Shown: positions 5,168-54,923 of the stretch, one piece after another | Numbering within the stretch: the first letter of the stretch is position 1 | How the letters are laid out: every line of letters begins with the position of its first letter | Source: Engelhardtia mirabilis | GTDB taxonomy: Bacteria > Planctomycetota > UBA1135 > GCA-002686595 | Assembly (NCBI GenBank): GCA_007751255.1 | Contig: CP036296.1 | Location: forward strand, 1,178,001 to 1,242,000 | Direction: 5' to 3' | Length of the DNA stretch: 64,000 nt | The notes under the pieces: generated by a model | What the model was told of the DNA's origin: nothing | What the model saw: only the letters and a program-made list of their open reading frames with translations | Database searches by the model: none | Program-made: the position numbers and the translations under genes

Positions 5168-7027
5168 ATGACGACTCCTACCAACACTGGCGCCGAGCTC
5201 CCCCTGCAGCAGCAGGAGAGCGTGGTGATCCGCTTCGCCGGGGACTCTGGCGACGGCATGCAGATCACCGGCAACCAATTCACGAGCACCTCGGCCGCGG
5301 TCGGGAACGACCTCGCGACCCTGCCGGACTTCCCCGCGGAGATCCGCGCCCCCGTGGGCACCCGCCCCGGGGTGTCGGGATTCCAGGTGCGCTTCAGCTC
5401 GTCGGACATCCACACCCCCGGCGACGCGCCGGACGTGCTGGTGGCGATGAACCCGGCCGCCCTGGTCGTGAACCTGAAGGATCTCAAGCCCGGCGGGATG
5501 GTGATCCTGAACACGGGCAACTGGAAGGAGCTCGACCTCAAGAAGGCGCGCTGCGCCACGGACCCGCGCCAGGACGGGACCCTGGACGGCTACCGCACGA
5601 TCGAGATCGACATCAACGAGCGCGTCAAGCAGGCCCTGACCGAGTCGGGTCTGTCGCCCAAGGACGTCCAGCGCTGCAAGAACTTCTACACCCTGGGGCT
5701 GATGTACTGGCTGTACAGCCGCCCGCTGGAGCCGACCCTCAACTGGCTCGCCAAAAAGTTCGCCAAGAAGCCCGACCTGGTGGCCGCCAACCAGACGGCG
5801 CTCAAGGCCGGCTTCAACGCCGGTGACATCCACGAGCACTTCCAGACGCGCTACGACGTGCCGCCGTGCACGACCCTGGAGCCCGGGACCTATCGGAACA
5901 TCATGGGCAACCAGGCCCTGTCGATCGGCCTGGTCGCGGGGGCGCAGCTCGCGGGCCTGGACATCTTCCTGGGCTCGTACCCGATCACGCCGGCGTCGGA
6001 CATCCTCCACGAGCTGGCGGGGTTCAAGAACTTCGGCGTGCGCACCTTCCAGGCCGAGGACGAGATCGCGGCGATCTGCTCGGCGATCGGCGCCTCCTTC
6101 GCCGGGCACCTGGGCCTGACCACCACGTCGGGACCGGGCATGGCGCTCAAGACCGAGGCCATGGGGCTCGCGATCGCGACGGAGCTGCCGCTGGTGATCG
6201 TCGACATCCAGCGCGCCGGTCCGTCCACGGGCATGCCGACCAAGACCGAGCAGTCCGACCTCTACCAGGCGGTGCTCGGCCGCAACGGCGACGCGCCCAT
6301 GCCGGTGGTCTCCTGCTCGACGCCCTCGGACTGCTTCGAGACGGCGATCGAGGCCGTGCGCATCGCGGTGCAGTACATGACGCCGGTGATCCTGCTCTCC
6401 GACGGCTACATCGCCAACGGTTCGGAGCCCTGGCGCCTGCCGGAGATGGAGTCGCTGAAGGCCTTCCCCGTCACCTTCCACACGGCGACGGAGGGCTTCT
6501 CGCCCGTCGCTCGGGACGAGAAGCTCGCGCGGCCCTGGGCGATCCCCGGGACGCCCGGCCTCGAGCACCGCATCGGCGGCCTCGAGAAGGACGGCGATAC
6601 GGGCAACATCAGCTACGACGCCCACAACCACGAGCGCATGAGCCATCTGCGGGCGCAGAAGGTCATGAACGTCCAGGAGACGATCCCGGACCCCGAGGTC
6701 TTCGGGGCCGAGAGCGGCGACGTGCTGGTCTGCGGCTGGGGCTCGACCGCCGGCTCGATCCGCTCCGCGGTGGAGATCTGCGCCGGCCGCGGTTTGAGCG
6801 TCGGCGCGGTGCACCTGCGCCACATCTGGCCCATGGCCAAGGGCCTCGACGGCATCTTCAGCCGCTTCCGCACGGTGCTCGTGCCGGAGCTGAACATGGG
6901 GCAGATGTGCCGCCTCCTGCGTAGCGAGTTCCCCAAGCACGACTTCGCGTCCTACCCCAAGGTGCAGGGCTTGCCCTTCGCCACCCACGAGCTCGTCGAG
7001 CGCATCGAAGACCTCCTGAAGCGCTGA
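5168..7027 (+). CDS. korA: 2-oxoacid:ferredoxin oxidoreductase, fused gamma-alpha subunit (KorA type)
   Basis: The protein has 619 residues. Residues ~17-210 form the gamma domain (FAGDSGDGMQITG, then PDFPAEIRAPVGT). Residues ~235-619 form the alpha domain with GNQALSIGLVAGA and YPITPASDILHEL, the strand that contacts the substrate and the TPP pyrimidine. The fused gamma-alpha order is that of the two-subunit 2-oxoglutarate or 2-oxoacid:ferredoxin oxidoreductases, which oxidatively decarboxylate 2-oxoacids to acyl-CoA with ferredoxin as acceptor, or the reverse. The open frame extends to 4712, but the ATG at 5168 matches where homologues begin and avoids overlap with the divergent FIST promoter region. 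It forms an operon with korB, four bases downstream. 2-oxoglutarate is the likeliest substrate but is not proven by sequence. Confidence 0.95.
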   Translation: MTTPTNTGAELPLQQQESVVIRFAGDSGDGMQITGNQFTSTSAAVGNDLATLPDFPAEIRAPVGTRPGVSGFQVRFSSSDIHTPGDAPDVLVAMNPAALVVNLKDLKPGGMVILNTGNWKELDLKKARCATDPRQDGTLDGYRTIEIDINERVKQALTESGLSPKDVQRCKNFYTLGLMYWLYSRPLEPTLNWLAKKFAKKPDLVAANQTALKAGFNAGDIHEHFQTRYDVPPCTTLEPGTYRNIMGNQALSIGLVAGAQLAGLDIFLGSYPITPASDILHELAGFKNFGVRTFQAEDEIAAICSAIGASFAGHLGLTTTSGPGMALKTEAMGLAIATELPLVIVDIQRAGPSTGMPTKTEQSDLYQAVLGRNGDAPMPVVSCSTPSDCFETAIEAVRIAVQYMTPVILLSDGYIANGSEPWRLPEMESLKAFPVTFHTATEGFSPVARDEKLARPWAIPGTPGLEHRIGGLEKDGDTGNISYDAHNHERMSHLRAQKVMNVQETIPDPEVFGAESGDVLVCGWGSTAGSIRSAVEICAGRGLSVGAVHLRHIWPMAKGLDGIFSRFRTVLVPELNMGQMCRLLRSEFPKHDFASYPKVQGLPFATHELVERIEDLLKR

Positions 7028-7031
7028 AACA

Positions 7032-8042
<1,011 letters not shown>

Positions 8043-8048
<6 letters not shown>

Positions 8049-8175
8049 GGCGTTCGTACGGTGCCAGGCACCCGTCCGCCGCCTGAATGCAGCAGGGCCC
8101 CGTTGCCTTCGGCAACGGGGCCCTGCTGCATTCAGGCGGCGGACGGGTGCCTGGCACCGTACGAACGCCTCAGTC
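8043..8175. repeat. 65-bp perfect inverted repeat (giant hairpin) overlapping the korB stop
   Basis: Arms 8043-8107 and 8111-8175 are exactly complementary over 65 bases with only a three-base centre (8108-8110). The left arm includes the korB stop codon, so the right arm repeats the gene end in reverse. Inside each arm is the self-complementary motif GGTGCCTGGCACC. The structure lies between convergent genes (korB and the gene ending at 8233), so it could terminate transcription from both sides, but it is far longer than a normal terminator. It ends sharply at 8042/8176, after which the two flanks no longer match. Confidence 0.95.
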
Positions 8176-8232
8176 TTCGATGGGGGCCTTGATCGGCCGG
8201 GGCCGCCTGTTTCGCGGCGCCGACCGTAACCA

Positions 8233-9015
8233 TCAGAACGCGGCCGAATCGGCCCAATAGGCCACGACGTCTCCTTCGGCGTCGAACCAGACTGCCTTGG
8301 AGAGGTCCGACTTGAGCACCATCTCCACCCCTGCATCGACCGCGGACGTCACGATGGGGCTCTGCATGTATCGGTCGATCGAGTCCAGCAGCGACTGCCG
8401 GTAGGGGCCGACCGACCTGATCAAGCGTGCAGCGTCCCGCGCGACGTAGAGGTCACCGCCACGCACCCCGTCGACCCGGACGTACGCCGCAGCGGCAGCG
8501 CCCTCCAAGCCCGGTCGGCTGCAGGGGAGATAGATCGTGTCCAGGTCGAGCCACCTCCGCGATTCTTCATGCTCGGTCGGGTCGAGCAGATCCTCTTCGG
8601 GACCGAGTGCCGTTACGAAGTCGAACCTGAGGTCGGCCTGAATCAACTTCAGTTCAGCTCGAAGGGCCTCGAGCCCCTCGAGATCGAACTCGTCCAGTCG
8701 AGCCTCGTTCAGCCGATCGAGGAAGGCCCGCAGCGCGGGCGAGTCGACGGCAGCGTCGATCGATTGGCGCTCGGCATCGGGAGATCGACCCGCAAGCGAT
8801 TCCTGAGGCTCGACTCGCTCGGCGATTCCCTCCGCCATGCGCAGGGGATCGACCTCGAGCGGCTCCCCATCGGGCAATGACCCCGCCGCGTCCTCCGAGA
8901 GCGGACCGACGCCACGGTTGGTGGGATCGGCAGGTGCATCCTCTCGCGAAAGGACGGCGATCGCCGACACCAAGGCCAGCCCGGCGCAGCTGATAAGTGC
9001 AAGCGGACGATTCAC
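8233..9015 (-). CDS. Hypothetical protein with N-terminal membrane anchor or signal
   Basis: This is a protein of about 260 residues that I do not recognise. The frame is open to 9150, but the GTG at 9015 is preceded by GAGGAA at good distance and places a hydrophobic segment (residues ~5-22, LALISCAGLALVSAIAVL) right at the N-terminus, as a signal or anchor. The rest is acidic and mostly helical in character, with a D/E-rich stretch in the first 100 residues and a more globular C-terminal part containing LDTIYLPCSRPGLEG. It is convergent with korB. N-terminally anchored proteins of unknown function recur at 58-63 kb, but I see no convincing sequence match to them. Confidence 0.7.
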   Translation of the reverse strand: MNRPLALISCAGLALVSAIAVLSREDAPADPTNRGVGPLSEDAAGSLPDGEPLEVDPLRMAEGIAERVEPQESLAGRSPDAERQSIDAAVDSPALRAFLDRLNEARLDEFDLEGLEALRAELKLIQADLRFDFVTALGPEEDLLDPTEHEESRRWLDLDTIYLPCSRPGLEGAAAAAYVRVDGVRGGDLYVARDAARLIRSVGPYRQSLLDSIDRYMQSPIVTSAVDAGVEMVLKSDLSKAVWFDAEGDVVAYWADSAAF

Positions 9016-9187
9016 GACCAGTTCCTCGATTGGATATGGCGACGCCCCGGCGGTCGCTCGGTGGGCCAGCGCTCGTCGACTCCGATCGAACTGTCGACGC
9101 TCGGGCGGTCTGAAGCCTGCGCCCCACGCCGTCGCTCCGTCAAGCCCCATCTACAAGTCGCCGGAGTGGAACGGACCGGGGCGATGA

Positions 9188-10510
9188 TCAGGCCGTCACG
9201 ACGCAGTTCTTGGTGGTCGTCTTCGCTCGCAGCAGGGCGCCGTGGGCGTCGCGCAGGATGGCCTCGATCGACGATGCGCGGGGATCGAGGGCGACCACGG
9301 CCATGGAGACGCTGTGGTTCAGCCTTGCTCCCTTGAGCTCGAAGGGCGTGCCCGCCACCGTCCGGCGGACACGCTCGGCGGCCTTGGCCGCCTGGGGAGC
9401 GCTCAGCTCGGGCAGCAGCAGGATGAACTCGTCGCCACCGACCCGCCCGAGCACGTCGTAGGGCCGCAGGGCCCGAGCGGTCCGCGTCGCAATCGCGGTC
9501 AGCAGGGCATCGCCGACAGCATGGCCGTGGATGGCGTTCACCGTCTTGAAGTCGTCGCAGTCCATCAGCACCGCGGCGCAGGCGTGGCCCTGGCGGCGGG
9601 CCCGTTGGGCCTCGCGTTCGAGAGCGACGGCCAGGCCGCGGCGATTGAGCAGGCCGGTGAGGGGGTCGTGGTCGGCCAGCTCGCGCAGGCGCAGCTCGGC
9701 ACGCTTGCGGCGGGTGATGTCGAAGTGGGTCACGACCACCTCGGGCGGCGACGCGATCCGCGCGGCGTGCATCAGGTACCAGCGCTCCTCGTCGTGGGAG
9801 TGGCAGGGGTACTCGACCTCGAGCGAGTCCCGCTCGCCGGCCACGAGCTGCGCGAGCCCCGCCCGAATCTCCTCGATGCTCGCGTCGCCATGGTCGGCCG
9901 TGGCCACGCGTGCAGGCGGTTGAGCCGGGTCCGGCTCGCAGGCCTCGAGGTAGTTCAGCCCGATGGCCCCGGCTTGCTCCGTGGTGGCCCCGTGGCCCAT
10001 TGCGGTCTCGCGCCAAGTGCGGTTGGTCGTGACGATCTTCCCGCTCGAGTCGAGCAGCGCGAGCTGGTGGGGGATCCCGTCCACGATCCGATTGAGCCGA
10101 TCGCGATCGTCCCGCGGGTTGGGGACCTCGACCACGCACAGCGCCGTCTCGGCCAGCGAGAGGGGGCCGATGGGAGTCGCGATCAAGCGCAGGCGCGGCC
10201 CGCCGTCGATCGCGCGCTCGACCTCCTGCGGGATGCCTGAGGTGGTGACCTCCCGCGCGAGGGCGACCAGAGACGCGGCCAGGCCCGGATAGGGTCCATC
10301 GCCGAGCTCGCGACCGGGAACGACCGTCAGGACCGACGCCAACTGGGGAGCTGGCGCCATGATTCGGCCGGCGCCGTCGAGGACCAGCGCCCCCGCGATC
10401 GGACCGGGCGGCGGGGGGGCTGCCGCGGTCGGCTTGTCGGCGCGACGCTCGCGCGGTCGAATCGATCCGCCCCGACCGGACGTCCGGTCACTCTCACCAG
10501 GCTCGGACAT
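9188..10510 (-). CDS. PAS-GGDEF diguanylate cyclase
   Basis: The protein has 440 residues from the ATG at 10510. Residues 1-40 are low-complexity. A first sensor-like region follows (about 38-135), then a PAS/PAC domain (about 142-268, ending THFDITRRKRAE), then a GGDEF domain (279-440) opening with DHDPLTGLLNRRG. The active-site motif is intact as GGDEF at 358-362, and RPYD at 349-352 forms the RxxD inhibitory site five residues ahead of it. It should therefore make cyclic di-GMP from GTP and be product-inhibited. It lacks transmembrane segments, so it is a cytoplasmic sensor. The frame stays open to 10801, but residues upstream of the chosen start are arginine-rich and unlike a protein domain. 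Confidence 0.9.
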   Translation of the reverse strand: MSEPGESDRTSGRGGSIRPRERRADKPTAAAPPPPGPIAGALVLDGAGRIMAPAPQLASVLTVVPGRELGDGPYPGLAASLVALAREVTTSGIPQEVERAIDGGPRLRLIATPIGPLSLAETALCVVEVPNPRDDRDRLNRIVDGIPHQLALLDSSGKIVTTNRTWRETAMGHGATTEQAGAIGLNYLEACEPDPAQPPARVATADHGDASIEEIRAGLAQLVAGERDSLEVEYPCHSHDEERWYLMHAARIASPPEVVVTHFDITRRKRAELRLRELADHDPLTGLLNRRGLAVALEREAQRARRQGHACAAVLMDCDDFKTVNAIHGHAVGDALLTAIATRTARALRPYDVLGRVGGDEFILLLPELSAPQAAKAAERVRRTVAGTPFELKGARLNHSVSMAVVALDPRASSIEAILRDAHGALLRAKTTTKNCVVTA

Positions 10511-11168
10511 CTCGGATCGGGAGCGGTGTGGTCGCACTGTCGGCCGCGCATCGGTCGGGGCACCGTTGCCCGCCGAGTTCAGCCGATATTCTGGTTCTAG
10601 GGGCGCGAATTCGAGGGTCCAGCGGCCGTGTGCGCGTTGAATTCGCGCGCGAGGGCGCGCTGCTTCACGCTTCGATGGCGAGTCGAGTCGATGGTTCGTC
10701 GCGCGTCGAGATCTCGGCTTGGACTGTGTGCGATTGCGCCGAATCGCTCGAGTGGGGGGATCGTCGTTGTCGGCGGGATGTCCGTGTTGCCGGAGACCCA
10801 CCGCGCCGGTCGTCGATCACCGGGCCGCCGAGGCTCCTCCAGGGGCGCAGGTCGAGTGCTCGTATCCCCTCTCCGCGGAGCGTTGCGTGCCCGGCGCTCT
10901 CGGTGGCTGCATTCCCAGCCACGGGCGGCGAGCGGGGGCGACAACTGCGGCGGCGCGACTGCAACCGGCGGGGCGCACATCCGCCTGTCCGTGACCGAGG
11001 TGCTCCGATCGTTGGAGTTCCTCGAGCCGACCGTCCAGGACCTGGACTCGCGGTCCACTCCAAGGACTGCCAAGCGCCCTGGGGGCCCCAGGGTCCCCGC
11101 TCGAGCCGCGGTACGGGAGTTGCTCCTCTTCTTTTCGATCCGTCCCGCTCCCCGACCCCTGACGTCCC
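10511..11168. other. 658-bp intergenic region, no gene recognised
   Basis: This gap separates the divergent diguanylate cyclase and propeller genes. Open frames exist on both strands, but their translations are arginine- and proline-rich and look like GC-rich noise. The region presumably holds the two divergent promoters; I could not place them with confidence. A possible short remnant with a helical look (LRSLEFLEPTVQDL) occurs near 11005-11050 on the plus strand, without a start or context. Confidence 0.5.
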
Positions 11169-13487
11169 ATGAAGCTCAACCTGCTCACCGCCCTCCTCTC
11201 GCTCACCGCCCTCGTCTCCACCGCCCGGGCCCAGGAGATGACGGTCATCGACCCTTCTCGTTCCGGCATCCCCGGCGAGGAGGTCCGCTTCGTCCGCCAC
11301 GCCCCCGACGGGGACGTGTGGGTCGGCGCCCGTTGGCCCTTCTGGGGTGAGGGGGGCATCGGGATCCTCGACCGTCAGACGGACCGGTGGACCGTGCTCT
11401 CCTCGGCGGCGGGCGACCTGCCGTCGCAGTTCGTGAACGACCTGGAGTTCGCGGCCGACGGCAGCGCGTGGATCGCCACGGGCGCGGGGCTGGTCCACTG
11501 GGTGGATGGCGCGGCGACGGTCTTCGACTCCGGCAACTCGCCGATGACCCTGGACGTGGTCAACGACCTGTCGATCGCGCCGGACGGCGACATCTGGTTC
11601 AACAGCTCGAGCTCCAGCTCCTCCGGCGATGCCGTCTACGAGTTCGACGGGGTCGACGGCTGGAACCGCTACACGGTGCCGGACGACATTCCCTTCGCCG
11701 CGCCGTGGACGGATCTGTCGGAGGTCTTCGCCGACAGCCAGGGTCGTGTGTGGGTGGCCAACAACACCCTGACCGGCGTCGCGCGCTTCGAAGGTGGCGT
11801 CTGGACCCTGCTGGGCGAGGGCGTCGACCGCTTCGACGAGATGGCCGAGGACGGCTTCGGGAACATCTGGTTCAACACCAACTTGGTCGGCAGTGGCTTC
11901 GCCTACTACCGCTTCGACGGCCAGACGCTGAAGCAGTACGGCTTCGACAGCTCGACGACGCTGACGACGGATCCGGAGGACGGCGCCGTCTACGTGGCGA
12001 ATTGGCACGGCACCGTTCTGCGCTCCACCGACGGTGGCGAGAGCTTCCACACCTTCGTGTCGGGCCTGAACATCATCTTCTCGGTGGCTCCCGACCCGCA
12101 GAGTGGTGAGGTGTGGATCGGGACCATCGGCGCGGTGGGGCGCTTCGACGGCGGCGGAGCCCTGCTCGAGGACTTCAACAGCTACAACACGGGCATGCCC
12201 TGGTATTGGGTCGACCGCTTCGACGTCGACTCGCGCGGCAACCTCTGGGTCGCCACCGACGAGGCCGGCCTGTCGCGCTTCGACGGCCGCGTCTGGCGCA
12301 ACTGGGGAGCCCACAACCTGGGCGCCGAGCCCTACCCCTTCGCGGGCAACGAGCCCATGGGCGGCGCCTTCGAGGACAGCCAGGGTCGCTTCTGGTTCGG
12401 CGGCAACGGCATCGCCCGTTGGGACGACGAGACCGGTGGATTCGACGGCTTCTGGAACTGGCAGAACAACCCGGGGATGGGCGTGACCCAGTTCCCGTTC
12501 TTCGCTGAGGACGCCCAGGGCAACGTGTTCGCGGCGACCGAGAACGGCACGCCCTATCGTTTCGACGACCAGGCGCAGTTGTGGGTCAAGGAACCGATTC
12601 AGCCCTACGCCGTGCTGGGCCTTCCAGGCATGGAGAGCGACTCTGACGGCGACGTCTGGATCGCCGCCTGGTTCGACCTGCACCATTGGGACGGCACGGC
12701 CTGGACCAAGGTCGCGCTGCCCTACGCGGACTACTTCTTCGACAAGGGCGGTATCTCGAGCTTCGCGATCGGCCCCGACGACACGTTCTACTTCGGCACC
12801 GTGGACGGGCTGGTCACCTACGACGGCGCGACCTTCCAGTTCTACGAGCCGAGCAACTCGCCCCTGCCCGCGGGCCAGGTGCCGGGCATCGACGTGCGCG
12901 CGGACGGCCTGATCGGCCTGACCTCGCGCGGCAACGGCTCGAACGAGCCCAGCACCGTCTGCCTGATCGACGGGCCCATCGCCGACGCGGCCAGTTGGAC
13001 GGTCTACGCCTACGGCAGCTCGCCCCTGCCCCACTGGCAGACGACGGCCTGCGCCTTCGAGCCGACGGGTGACCTGTGGGTCAGCGCCCTGAGCGAAGGC
13101 GTGGCGGTGGTGCAGTGCGGTGTCTGGGAGGACCTCGGTCTTGCCCTCGAAGGTTCGGGCGGCGAGCCCTACCTGCGCGGCTACGGCGTGCCCACGGGCG
13201 GCGCCGCCATCGGTCTCGAGGTCGAGCACCTGCCGGGCGCTTCCATCGGCGTACACGTGGTCGGCGGCTTCGCGGTCGGGATCCCGCTCTTCGGCGGCAC
13301 CCTGGTGCCCGACCCCGCCCTGCAGATTCCCTACCTGTCCGACGCCGGCGGCCAGGCGGGCCTCGCCATCACCTGGCCGGCGGCGATCCCGTCCGGGACG
13401 AGCATGTACGTGCAGAGCTGGACCCTGGACGGCGGCGCCGCGCAGCAGGTCTCGGCCTCGAACGCGGTGGTGCTGTCGGTGCCGTGA
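11169..13487 (+). CDS. Secreted beta-propeller protein
   Basis: The protein has 772 residues with a clear Sec signal peptide (MKLNLLTALLSLTALVSTARAQ). Residues ~25-650 contain repeated units of the type APDGDIWFNSS, DSRGNLWVATDEAGLSRFDG and DSQGRFWFGGNGIARWDD. These resemble the propeller repeats found in the extracellular sensors of hybrid two-component systems, but here no membrane or kinase domain follows. The last ~110 residues form a beta-rich module like those on other secreted proteins of this window (ending NAVVLSVP). It probably acts outside the cytoplasm as a binding protein. It is convergent with the dynamin operon; the ligand is unknown. Confidence 0.8.
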   Translation: MKLNLLTALLSLTALVSTARAQEMTVIDPSRSGIPGEEVRFVRHAPDGDVWVGARWPFWGEGGIGILDRQTDRWTVLSSAAGDLPSQFVNDLEFAADGSAWIATGAGLVHWVDGAATVFDSGNSPMTLDVVNDLSIAPDGDIWFNSSSSSSSGDAVYEFDGVDGWNRYTVPDDIPFAAPWTDLSEVFADSQGRVWVANNTLTGVARFEGGVWTLLGEGVDRFDEMAEDGFGNIWFNTNLVGSGFAYYRFDGQTLKQYGFDSSTTLTTDPEDGAVYVANWHGTVLRSTDGGESFHTFVSGLNIIFSVAPDPQSGEVWIGTIGAVGRFDGGGALLEDFNSYNTGMPWYWVDRFDVDSRGNLWVATDEAGLSRFDGRVWRNWGAHNLGAEPYPFAGNEPMGGAFEDSQGRFWFGGNGIARWDDETGGFDGFWNWQNNPGMGVTQFPFFAEDAQGNVFAATENGTPYRFDDQAQLWVKEPIQPYAVLGLPGMESDSDGDVWIAAWFDLHHWDGTAWTKVALPYADYFFDKGGISSFAIGPDDTFYFGTVDGLVTYDGATFQFYEPSNSPLPAGQVPGIDVRADGLIGLTSRGNGSNEPSTVCLIDGPIADAASWTVYAYGSSPLPHWQTTACAFEPTGDLWVSALSEGVAVVQCGVWEDLGLALEGSGGEPYLRGYGVPTGGAAIGLEVEHLPGASIGVHVVGGFAVGIPLFGGTLVPDPALQIPYLSDAGGQAGLAITWPAAIPSGTSMYVQSWTLDGGAAQQVSASNAVVLSVP

Positions 13488-13549
13488 CGAGTTCGCTGGC
13501 TGCCGCGGGGCGCCCGCCGGGTGCCTGGCACTCGACGCGGGCCCCTCGG

Positions 13550-14440
13550 CTAGCCCTCCCGCGGAAACTGCCCGTCGCGGGTCAGCACCACGGACGGCTC
13601 GTCGCGGGCGCGGTCGAGCAGCCAGGTGAGCCCGGCGCGGACCACGGCCAGGGGCAGCTCGCTGCCCGGGGCGCAGGCGAACTCGAGTTGGGTCGAGAGG
13701 GCCTCGCACTGGACGAACAGGCGTCGGGGGACGTCCCCCGCCCCCTCGCCCAGGTCTTCGCGCACTCGTGGCCGGGTCTCGGAGTGGCGCAGGTCGAAGG
13801 TTCCGTCGGCGGCGTTCCAGCGGACTCCGGGCGGTAGACGGCGATGGAGCCAGCGGGCGCGCAGCAGCTCGCGCAGGAGCTTGCGGACTTCGTCGCGCCC
13901 GGCGCGCTCCCACATCTCGCCGCCGGACTCGGGGCCGAGCTCGCCGCCGCCGCGCAGGCGGGCCGCCAGCGACAGCAGCGGGCAGTCGACCTCGATCGGC
14001 CCGCTCGCGTGCTCGGGCAGGTAGGTGACTCGCAGGTCGCTCCCGCGGCGTTCGAGGGACCAGGCTTCGCCCCGTTGGACCAGGCGTGTGCGCTGCAGCA
14101 GCAGCTGCCACGTGCGCGGTGCACGCTGGCGCAGGGCCTCTTGCACCTCGGCCGGGGCGTGGACCTCGAGCTGCGCCGCGCCGGCAGACTCCAGGGACGC
14201 CAGCAGGCCTTCGACGAGGTCGGGCAGGGGCTCCCAGCGCCAAGTGTCGGCCGCGTCGCCAAGGCGCGTGACGCCCGGCCAGCGGCGCAGGGCGCGCAGC
14301 CCGTCCGCGCCGCCCTCCTGGATCACCCGTGCGTGGGCGAAGGCTTCGGGCATCCTCGCCGAGTCGTCGACGGCGCCGCGCGGCGTGCGCGGCAGGCCGT
14401 GGGCCAGCTCCAGGCGCAGGGTCGTGGCGGGCTCGCTCAC
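13550..14440 (-). CDS. Hypothetical protein, last gene of the dynamin-like operon
   Basis: This is a soluble protein of 296 residues that I do not recognise. There is no signal peptide or transmembrane segment. The sequence is Arg-, Glu- and Leu-rich with a helical central part (PDLVEGLLASLESAGAAQLEV, then EVRKLLRELLRARWLHRRL) and strands toward the end. Its ATG overlaps the stop of the preceding gene by four bases (14437-14440), indicating translational coupling. The fixed arrangement with a membrane protein and a dynamin-like GTPase suggests a role in the same complex, but this is inference from position only. Confidence 0.7.
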   Translation of the reverse strand: MSEPATTLRLELAHGLPRTPRGAVDDSARMPEAFAHARVIQEGGADGLRALRRWPGVTRLGDAADTWRWEPLPDLVEGLLASLESAGAAQLEVHAPAEVQEALRQRAPRTWQLLLQRTRLVQRGEAWSLERRGSDLRVTYLPEHASGPIEVDCPLLSLAARLRGGGELGPESGGEMWERAGRDEVRKLLRELLRARWLHRRLPPGVRWNAADGTFDLRHSETRPRVREDLGEGAGDVPRRLFVQCEALSTQLEFACAPGSELPLAVVRAGLTWLLDRARDEPSVVLTRDGQFPREG

Positions 14441-15381
14441 GGCAGCGCCCCCTCGAGTTGGTCCAGGTTCTCGACCAGGAAGCGGCGCAGCTCGACCAGT
14501 CCGACGAAGCTCGCGCCCAGGCCCTCGACGCGGTCGAACACGAGCAGCCAGTAGGGCTGCAGGCGGGCGTCGACCACGGCCAAGAGCTCGGCCACGGCGT
14601 CGGGCGAGTAGCGGGCGGTGGTGTGCTCGAGCAGTCGGCGGTCGTCGCCGCGACGCAGCTCGATGCGCCAGCGCAGGTGCGCGCCGTCGGTCTCGGTGGA
14701 GATGGACATCTGACAGCCTCGCACCTCGCGCGGCCCCGAGCCGTCACCCAGGACCTCCTCGCGCAACAGGGCGCGCAGGCCGTCGACGATCTCGCTCGCA
14801 TCCTCCGGCTCGAAGTGCATGCCGTCGCGGGCGGGCGCCGACAACCAGTTCTCGAACAGGGCAGGGCCGCTGTGTTGGATGCCTAGCTCGGCCAGGAGTG
14901 CGAGCAGCGCCGACACCTCGGGGGCGACCGCGCCGATCGGGCGCAGCCAGGGTCCGTGGGGCGCGCCGCGCGAGGCGAGCACCGCCCCCTCGCGCCGGCC
15001 CGGTAGGGCGAAGGCGGCCGAGCGCACCTCGAATTGCCCGCCGCCCGGGGCCGGCCAGTGGGCGTCGAAGGCGCTGGCTGCGAGCCCGATCAGGCGCAGG
15101 TCGACGATCCGCGGCACGGGCTCGGCGCCGAGCTCGGGCAGCGGCAGCAGGTGCGCCGCGACGTCGGCCAGGGCCGACTCGTTCGATGCGGCGAGTGGAG
15201 ACAGGAGGGCGCCGAGGGGGGCACGCCGCCCGCGCACGTCGCGCTCGGAGATGCGCGAGGAGTCCGGCAACAGGTAGATCCCGGCGTCGGCCGCGGGGTC
15301 CCGCTCGATGGCCGCCAAGAGTCGCGGCCGATCCTCGAGGTCGGCCGCGAGGTAGAGCAGCGCGCGCGGCGGCGCGGTCAT
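14437..15381 (-). CDS. Hypothetical protein, third gene of the dynamin-like operon
   Basis: The 314-residue protein is not recognised. It begins with a Rossmann-like strand-helix start (PPRALLYLAADLEDRPRLLAAI) but has no nucleotide-binding motif. No signal or transmembrane segment is visible. The C-terminal third looks like a beta-sheet followed by helices (LRWRIELRRGDDRRLLEH, then VVDARLQPYWLLVFDRVEGLG). It overlaps its neighbours by four bases at both ends, so it is translated with them. The last 120 residues could be a small binding domain; no function is assigned. Confidence 0.7.
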   Translation of the reverse strand: MTAPPRALLYLAADLEDRPRLLAAIERDPAADAGIYLLPDSSRISERDVRGRRAPLGALLSPLAASNESALADVAAHLLPLPELGAEPVPRIVDLRLIGLAASAFDAHWPAPGGGQFEVRSAAFALPGRREGAVLASRGAPHGPWLRPIGAVAPEVSALLALLAELGIQHSGPALFENWLSAPARDGMHFEPEDASEIVDGLRALLREEVLGDGSGPREVRGCQMSISTETDGAHLRWRIELRRGDDRRLLEHTTARYSPDAVAELLAVVDARLQPYWLLVFDRVEGLGASFVGLVELRRFLVENLDQLEGALP

Positions 15382-54858: not shown

Positions 54859-54923
54859 CTGCGGCGATTGGGCTTCCTAATCGCCGCAGGATCTGCGGCG
54901 ATTAGTGGCCCCAATCGCCGCAG
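54859..54923. promoter_or_regulatory. Four-box inverted repeat array upstream of fic (operator-like)
   Basis: Four copies of a 13-base element (consensus CTGCGGCGATTRG) lie at 54859-54871, 54877-54889 (inverted), 54893-54905 and 54911-54923 (inverted). The inner pair forms a perfect palindrome with a three-base centre (GAT), and the outer pair is also exactly complementary. Box starts are spaced 18, 16 and 18 bases. This looks like an operator for a dimeric regulator; the Fic protein has its own C-terminal winged-helix-like domain and is the obvious candidate. A hairpin terminator for imuA is the alternative. Confidence 0.6.

Follow-up and report, generated by a model that had tools for sequence, protein, structure and literature searches.

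A perfect palindrome at the 3' end of korB in Engelhardtia mirabilis and its REPIN-like repeat family

The palindrome at the end of korB

The window, that is, the whole stretch of E. mirabilis DNA analysed here (64,000 nucleotides), carries on its forward strand an ORF of 338 aa (7032-8048) with orthologues recognised by similarity. We take it, following the name used in an earlier note on this DNA, to be korB, coding for the beta subunit of a 2-oxoacid:ferredoxin oxidoreductase. A convergent gene is located on the reverse strand at 8233-8877 according to a home-made codon-usage caller, its longest ORF extending to 9150. The end of korB is embedded in a palindromic element (8043-8175) that is composed, at the sequence level, of two perfect 65-bp arms and a 3-nt centre. 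The sequence bears out what the earlier note had described: arm 8111-8175 is the exact reverse complement of arm 8043-8107 across the centre TTC (8108-8110), and the korB stop codon is included. Pairing ends beyond the arms, the outer neighbours G 8042 and T 8176 being unpaired.

Each arm can be divided into three regions, called O, unit and M from the outside to the centre. The left O (8043-8048, forward strand) is GACTGA, the final codon of korB (GAC) and its stop (TGA), and is probably host-derived. It is followed by unit 1 (8049-8085, forward strand), a repeat of the type GGCG-TTCGTACG-GTGCC-A-GGCAC-CCGTCCGC-CGCC that carries GGTGCCAGGCACC at 8060-8072, and by M (8086-8107, forward strand), a locus-specific inner arm of 22 nt. 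Across the loop TTC, the same regions return in inverted order: M' (8111-8132, reverse strand) is the exact complement of M, unit 2 (8133-8169, reverse strand) is identical to unit 1, and O' (8170-8175), TCAGTC, repeats the korB end in inverted form on the intergenic side.

The other long inverted repeats in the list for the window (within 200 bp) have imperfect arms of 37 nt at 70%, 36 nt at 78% and 31 nt at 87% identity. The RNA fold of the korB palindrome has a predicted energy of -160.7 kcal/mol, compared with -63.8 ± 4.1 for 200 shuffled sequences (z -23.7). As had also been pointed out before, the motif GTGCCTGGCAC recurs at 13521-13531. There it forms the centre of an imperfect palindrome, with pairing at 19 of the 24 positions examined per side, a degenerate single relative (13502-13550) between two convergent genes. 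An Rfam scan of window positions 7000-15000 gave no match at gathering score. Two further structures were observed in the window. At 674-725, an inverted repeat of 23 nt (96%) encloses a 6-nt loop and is one of a small number of long hairpins that belong to neither of the palindrome families described below, and at 54859-54923 there are two 31-nt units (CTGCGGCGATT...AATCGCCGCAG) with self-complementary ends and a 3-nt gap, which may represent another repeat family.

A genome-wide family of paired units

The suggestion that part of the palindrome belongs to a genome-wide repeat family was borne out by a search of the genome (6.95 Mb, two contigs), which gave about 70 loci. With a 161-base query, 82 BLAST matches were obtained, many of them representing one palindrome on both strands; scores were computed for 40 of 102 candidates. 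With three mismatches allowed, the 20-mer GTTCGTACGGTGCCAGGCAC occurs at 109 sites, compared with one for the reversed control, and 78 of the 100 sites listed among these 109 are exact. The stretches fetched contain 75 loci with 115 core sites, corresponding to 40 inverted pairs and 35 singles, some of the latter being degenerate or chance matches. Eight of the 75 loci have no clean unit boundary and were excluded from the flank counts, leaving 67; some of the excluded loci and a few of those kept are chance or degenerate matches (for instance, 532645, 6070106, 6658686 and 708883).

The typical layout of a pair is O-unit-M-NNN-M'-unit'-O', in which a unit of about 37 bp with the core GGTGCCAGGCAC is common to the loci. 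The distance between cores is 69-79 nt in 35 of the 40 pairs, while the other five are short (22-40 nt) and have little or no M. Apart from the four centre-proximal positions, the inner arms have no mismatch in 17 pairs, one in 10 and two to four in nine; the remaining four score 7-16, their arm lengths differing or the ungapped count being off register. Perfect arms of 61-71 bp were found at eight of the 19 distinct loci measured. The left edge of the element is GTAG in 37 of the 67 loci, GTAG and CTAC mark both edges in 29, and the copy in the window has TGAG.

Some copies depart from this layout. Locus 2360094 is a single without O', and locus 5359862, once considered a one-sided intermediate, proved to belong to a pair, of which it is the right half. 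Short tandem GTTCGTACGGTGCC(C) parts of the unit, present on one arm only, break the symmetry of L155 near 5990664, and one-armed tandem copies of this kind are also found at loci 3715752, 4949501, 2129777, 2933070 and 5304404. At L151, near G000:C1:5565465, half a unit is fused to a tandem CCTACTGCCCATTTCGGA array.

The two arms of a locus are much more alike than arms of different loci. In 32 of the 40 pairs, on which these figures rest, the outer 12 nt of M show 95.6% identity from arm to arm (58% in the lowest locus) and 36.0% between loci. The corresponding values are 98.2% and 88.1% for the r-half of the unit, and 92.9% and 68.4% for the tip. The likeness extends outwards into O. Complementary O runs of at least four bases (the first two bases being ignored) occur in 41 of the 67 loci (27 of 39 pairs and 14 of 28 singles), against 2.0% of cross-locus flank pairings. 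Flank positions 3-7, counted outwards, pair in 76-90% of cases compared with 31-45% between loci, and at about 11 bases out the signal is near that of the control. Measured from the GGCG edge, there are many runs of 5-13 bases. The palindrome often continues into the locus-specific flank, a feature for which no earlier description was found in the accessible portions of the literature on REPs, RAYTs and palindromes. Neither did those portions describe near-perfect long arms in such repeats. Papers matching the core motif included no repeat study, as judged by their titles.

With respect to genes, 66 of the 67 loci with set boundaries lie outside those called by the home-made caller, some of them overlapping a gene end. 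For placement, one of the 67 loci was excluded and genes were again taken from the home-made codon-usage caller: 55 of 66 loci are within 45 bp of the 3' end of a called gene (a figure without a computed background), and 29 of 66 are in convergent gaps, compared with 36 of 181 unit-free gaps in the same stretches (Fisher p 0.0003). In 527 kb, comprising the loci and the window with about 13 kb counted twice, there are 46 hairpins outside the korB-type family (stem of 12 bp or more with up to one mismatch, loop of 3-8). Eight of these belong to the second palindrome family, and only four of the other 38 reach 20 bp.

As RNA, the korB element would form a very stable 3'-end hairpin for both korB and the convergent gene. 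A U-tract next to the palindrome was sought and none was found. For this reason, a role as a 3'-end stabiliser or barrier is more likely than that of a canonical intrinsic terminator.

A sister family, RAYT genes and other genomes

For a sister family, CGTACGGTGGCGGGA, 153 sites with two mismatches or fewer were found, compared with 51 for the control, and by our own count there are at least 43 inverted pairs among the 100 of these 153 places that were listed. Its palindromes are long, near-perfect and very regularly spaced. At 19 loci, 74-95% of the flanks pair at outward positions 8-15 compared with 24-44% between loci; the first seven positions are 95-100% paired, although two of the seven do not vary within the family, and tandem copies of the unit make up part of the flank. 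These numbers put the korB palindrome into proportion. It had been regarded as exceptional, which holds within the window but not genome-wide, in view of the 40 pairs of its own family and at least 43 of the sister family.

The genome has a RAYT-type gene of 339 aa at C1:4713646-4714653, which was detected at E 4.5e-92 with a profile built from four RAYTs of other genomes of the order, the gene of this genome not being included. It is bracketed by near-identical sister palindromes (G000:C1:4713440-4713538 and 4714701-4714799). An empty PF01797 search had first been read as absence of a transposase from the genome, a false negative given the gene found by the four-RAYT profile. Against NF047646 the protein matches at E 1.7e-14 over residues 5-138, with 53.9 of 80 bits, below the curated cut-off. 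A scan of its 339 residues for a helix-turn-helix (HTH) gave no match, sub-cut-off HTH matches being present in two of the four other RAYTs, and the single match returned by a search of solved structures (E 0.75) was meaningless. About 1.2 kb from one korB-type pair lies a RAYT remnant (49% over 43 aa).

Long palindromes may be tolerated in this bacterium through a divergent or absent nuclease. SbcD has a single sub-cut-off match in the genome (G000:C1:834665-834844, 25.4 of 77.65 bits), while 13 of 14 control genomes have a match and eight of them exceed the cut-off, which suggests that the palindrome nuclease is divergent or missing here.

Within the order, the 17-mer (at most one mismatch) is present in 24 of 154 genomes, this one included and often with one site, compared with 11 of 154 for the reversed control. 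G025 has 61 sites, and the other genomes of the order have far fewer. Several relatives contain different long palindromes that share GTACGG(T/A)GCCAGG. In G142, of the same order, tandem repeats of about 188 bp, each with a GGTGCCAGGCACC core, occupy C3:29000-31600 (L188). No genome of the same genus was found among the 40 relatives or the 154 genomes of the order. The RAYT profile matches 18 of the 40 relatives, namely seven of the nine with the 17-mer and 11 of the 31 without it, a weak association (p 0.053); leaving out the profile donors G004, G020 and G025, seven of nine becomes four of six, and five of the nine have one site.

More widely, the paired pattern GGTGCCAGGCAC-N20-50-GTGCCTGGCACC was found in at least 120 stretches (L209-L328), many of them in MAGs. 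Eighty were inspected and some others served for the comparison of flank pairing. The records, with phyla partly assigned from the genus names, come from Bacillota, Pseudomonadota, Spirochaetota, Planctomycetota, Bdellovibrionota, Elusimicrobia, Chloroflexi, Acidobacteriota and others. Hairpins bounded by GGTGCCAGGCAC across many phyla possibly represent one broad RAYT recognition class.

Y1_Tnp matched all 20 handles picked for related palindromes, compared with five of 14 control genomes. These 20, in 19 distinct genomes since G142 and G160 are one assembly, were 15 genomes chosen from the paired-pattern matches and five order mates, and some of their matches score like true IS200. The core (at most one mismatch) flanks both ends of the gene in five of 29 distinct Y1_Tnp loci, most others having none: L336 and L338 (Pseudoduganella), L337 (Fictibacillus), L358 (Clostridium ljungdahlii) and L345 (G142), in the last of which the end of the ORF is overlapped by one core. 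Certain RAYT genes from two other phyla carry a GGTGCCAGGCAC-type core at both ends. Locus-specific flank pairing was seen in Pseudoduganella (seven loci) and G020 (four), and weakly in Bdellovibrionota (six). It was not clearly above the cross-locus level in Evansella, two Alkalihalobacterium species, Fictibacillus, Treponema, Syntrophomonas and G025. The sets from Pirellulales, Lachnospiraceae and G142 have flanks largely common to their copies and are hence uninformative on this point.

Origin and meaning of the palindromes

In Escherichia coli, classical REPs and BIMEs are RAYT-linked inverted pairs at gene 3' ends. The korB-type pairs resemble them in this description. For the palindromes of nematomorph mitochondria we know of no link to a transposase. 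They are also numerous perfect inverted repeats, but located in organelle coding sequence (PMC6649704). Closer parallels are provided by REPINs, inverted REP doublets whose spacer is described as holding its length and its hairpin pairing through two-sided changes (Bertels and Rainey 2011, PMC3116915). As in the account given there, the E. mirabilis elements combine inverted conserved repeats, a near-fixed spacer with two-sided changes, a mostly extragenic location and a RAYT in the genome, and the singles can be explained as derivatives of doublets. They differ from the REPINs of that account in their perfect arms of 61-71 bp (at eight of 19 loci), in the palindrome often entering locus-specific flank, in the core, and in the GTAG foot, which only part of the copies has.

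A second parallel is that of TIRYTs and TIRtrons, RAYT-like genes flanked by long and sometimes self-complementary TIRs that are also dispersed (Di Nocera 2013, PMC3733652), listed as subclass 2.1 by Quentin (2018, PMC6006769). What the present genome shares with them is a RAYT-like gene whose C-terminal part is long, set between long self-complementary inverted repeats of which further copies are dispersed. However, the repeats here have GTACGGTGCCAGGCAC or GTACGGTGGCGGGA, where several published TIRs have GGGGWSAS in common, and the TIR families, called moderately abundant in the text of PMC3733652, contrast with about 70 loci and at least 43 sister pairs here.

The korB palindrome is a hairpin of the REPIN/TIR-repeat type. 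Our preferred reading, to which we give a probability of roughly three in four, is that of a REPIN-like mobile hairpin, made of two inverted REP/TIR units of about 37 bp and a hairpin spacer, that lies where two convergent genes meet at their 3' ends. Such hairpins are thought to be spread by RAYT/TIRYT (Y1-HUH, IS200-like) single-strand transposases. The copying of REPs and REPINs by RAYTs is still called poorly understood in PMC8266576. The element would be non-autonomous and its strand would fold into a single long hairpin. A transposase, presumably a RAYT, would recognise the unit, as the genome association suggests, and mobilise the element as a single-stranded hairpin. On landing or replication, one arm would serve as template for the other, so that the arms would stay alike as M changes, and copying would overrun a few bases into the flank, making O' an inverted copy of O. 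Some findings weigh against this reading. No O run of at least four bases is present in 14 of 28 singles and in 12 of 39 pairs. The palindromes that bracket the intact RAYT are of the sister family and not of the korB-type one, and the gene was missed by PF01797 and scores below the cut-off of NF047646. The IS200-like scores of some Y1_Tnp matches, the lack of a core beside most of the 29 Y1_Tnp genes and the unclear flank pairing in several other genera count on the same side.

A more specific version is snap-back (hairpin-primed) insertion, in which only one arm would be delivered and its tip would prime itself, copying first the arm and then several bases of target flank. An "inverted target duplication" would then replace the direct target-site duplication, each transposition would make the palindrome perfect again, and GGTGCC(A/T)GGCACC would be one ancient RAYT recognition class across many phyla. 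We regard this version as tentative and, as a whole, rather unlikely.

The ends of korB in relatives bear on the origin of O. In 27 relatives (the partial korB loci L099 and L102 being excluded), GACTGA terminates korB in four and the protein has a V/I-D end in seven; perfect stems over the stop with a loop of 3-8 are of at most 4 bp in 26 and of 10 bp in one. Because of these GACTGA ends and the absence of long stems, the left O most likely represents old coding sequence, the right-hand TCAGTC being its inverted copy, as read from a sequence comparison at one locus.

Those korB ends also count against the idea that units were inserted into both arms of pre-existing long terminator hairpins, O and M being the old terminator stem. 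The location of the loci at gene 3' ends would suit such an origin, as would the tips of M, often a terminator-like GCCGCC or GGCGCC before the 3-nt loop. However, long hairpins are scarce (the four of 38 that reach 20 bp in 527 kb), the length of M is very uniform, and two mirror-image insertions would be needed, all of which makes this origin improbable. Only slightly better placed, though still improbable, is maintenance of arm complementarity by selection on an RNA or DNA hairpin, through compensatory mutations and with no template copying. The two-sided changes reported for REPIN spacers (PMC3116915) and a 3'-end location that fits an RNA role are consistent with it, but more half-compensated pairs would be expected than a family in which 27 of 40 pairs have at most one counted inner-arm mismatch despite the 36.0% identity of M between loci, and O at korB matches an old coding end.

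The earlier note had proposed recent formation by template switching. Part of this proposal survives, arm-to-arm copying being the best reading of the likeness of the arms. As a single spontaneous switch at the korB terminator, which the perfect arms and abrupt ends had recommended, it has hardly any probability left in view of 40 paired family loci, 35 of them with equal spacing, and of a common core beside RAYT genes in other phyla. The notion of a one-off element is likewise contradicted, by an outcome that the earlier note had itself named as refuting: the element recurs, as a known kind of repeat, at roughly 70 loci of this genome, and RAYT-linked hairpins with a common core exist in other phyla. 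Perfect inverted repeats can also be artefacts, and the earlier note had considered an assembly foldback. With many loci differing in flanks and loops, a genome assembled in two contigs and comparable palindromes in other assemblies, this source of the korB palindrome is very unlikely.

If the palindromes are REPIN-like mobile hairpins, near-perfect arms that vary from locus to locus, together with the overrun into host DNA, would record what each landing copied, and the copying step could therefore be tested through a comparison of occupied with empty sites. In genomes of this kind, a long perfect palindrome at a gene end can turn out to be a mobile repeat, and not an assembly error or a special terminator.
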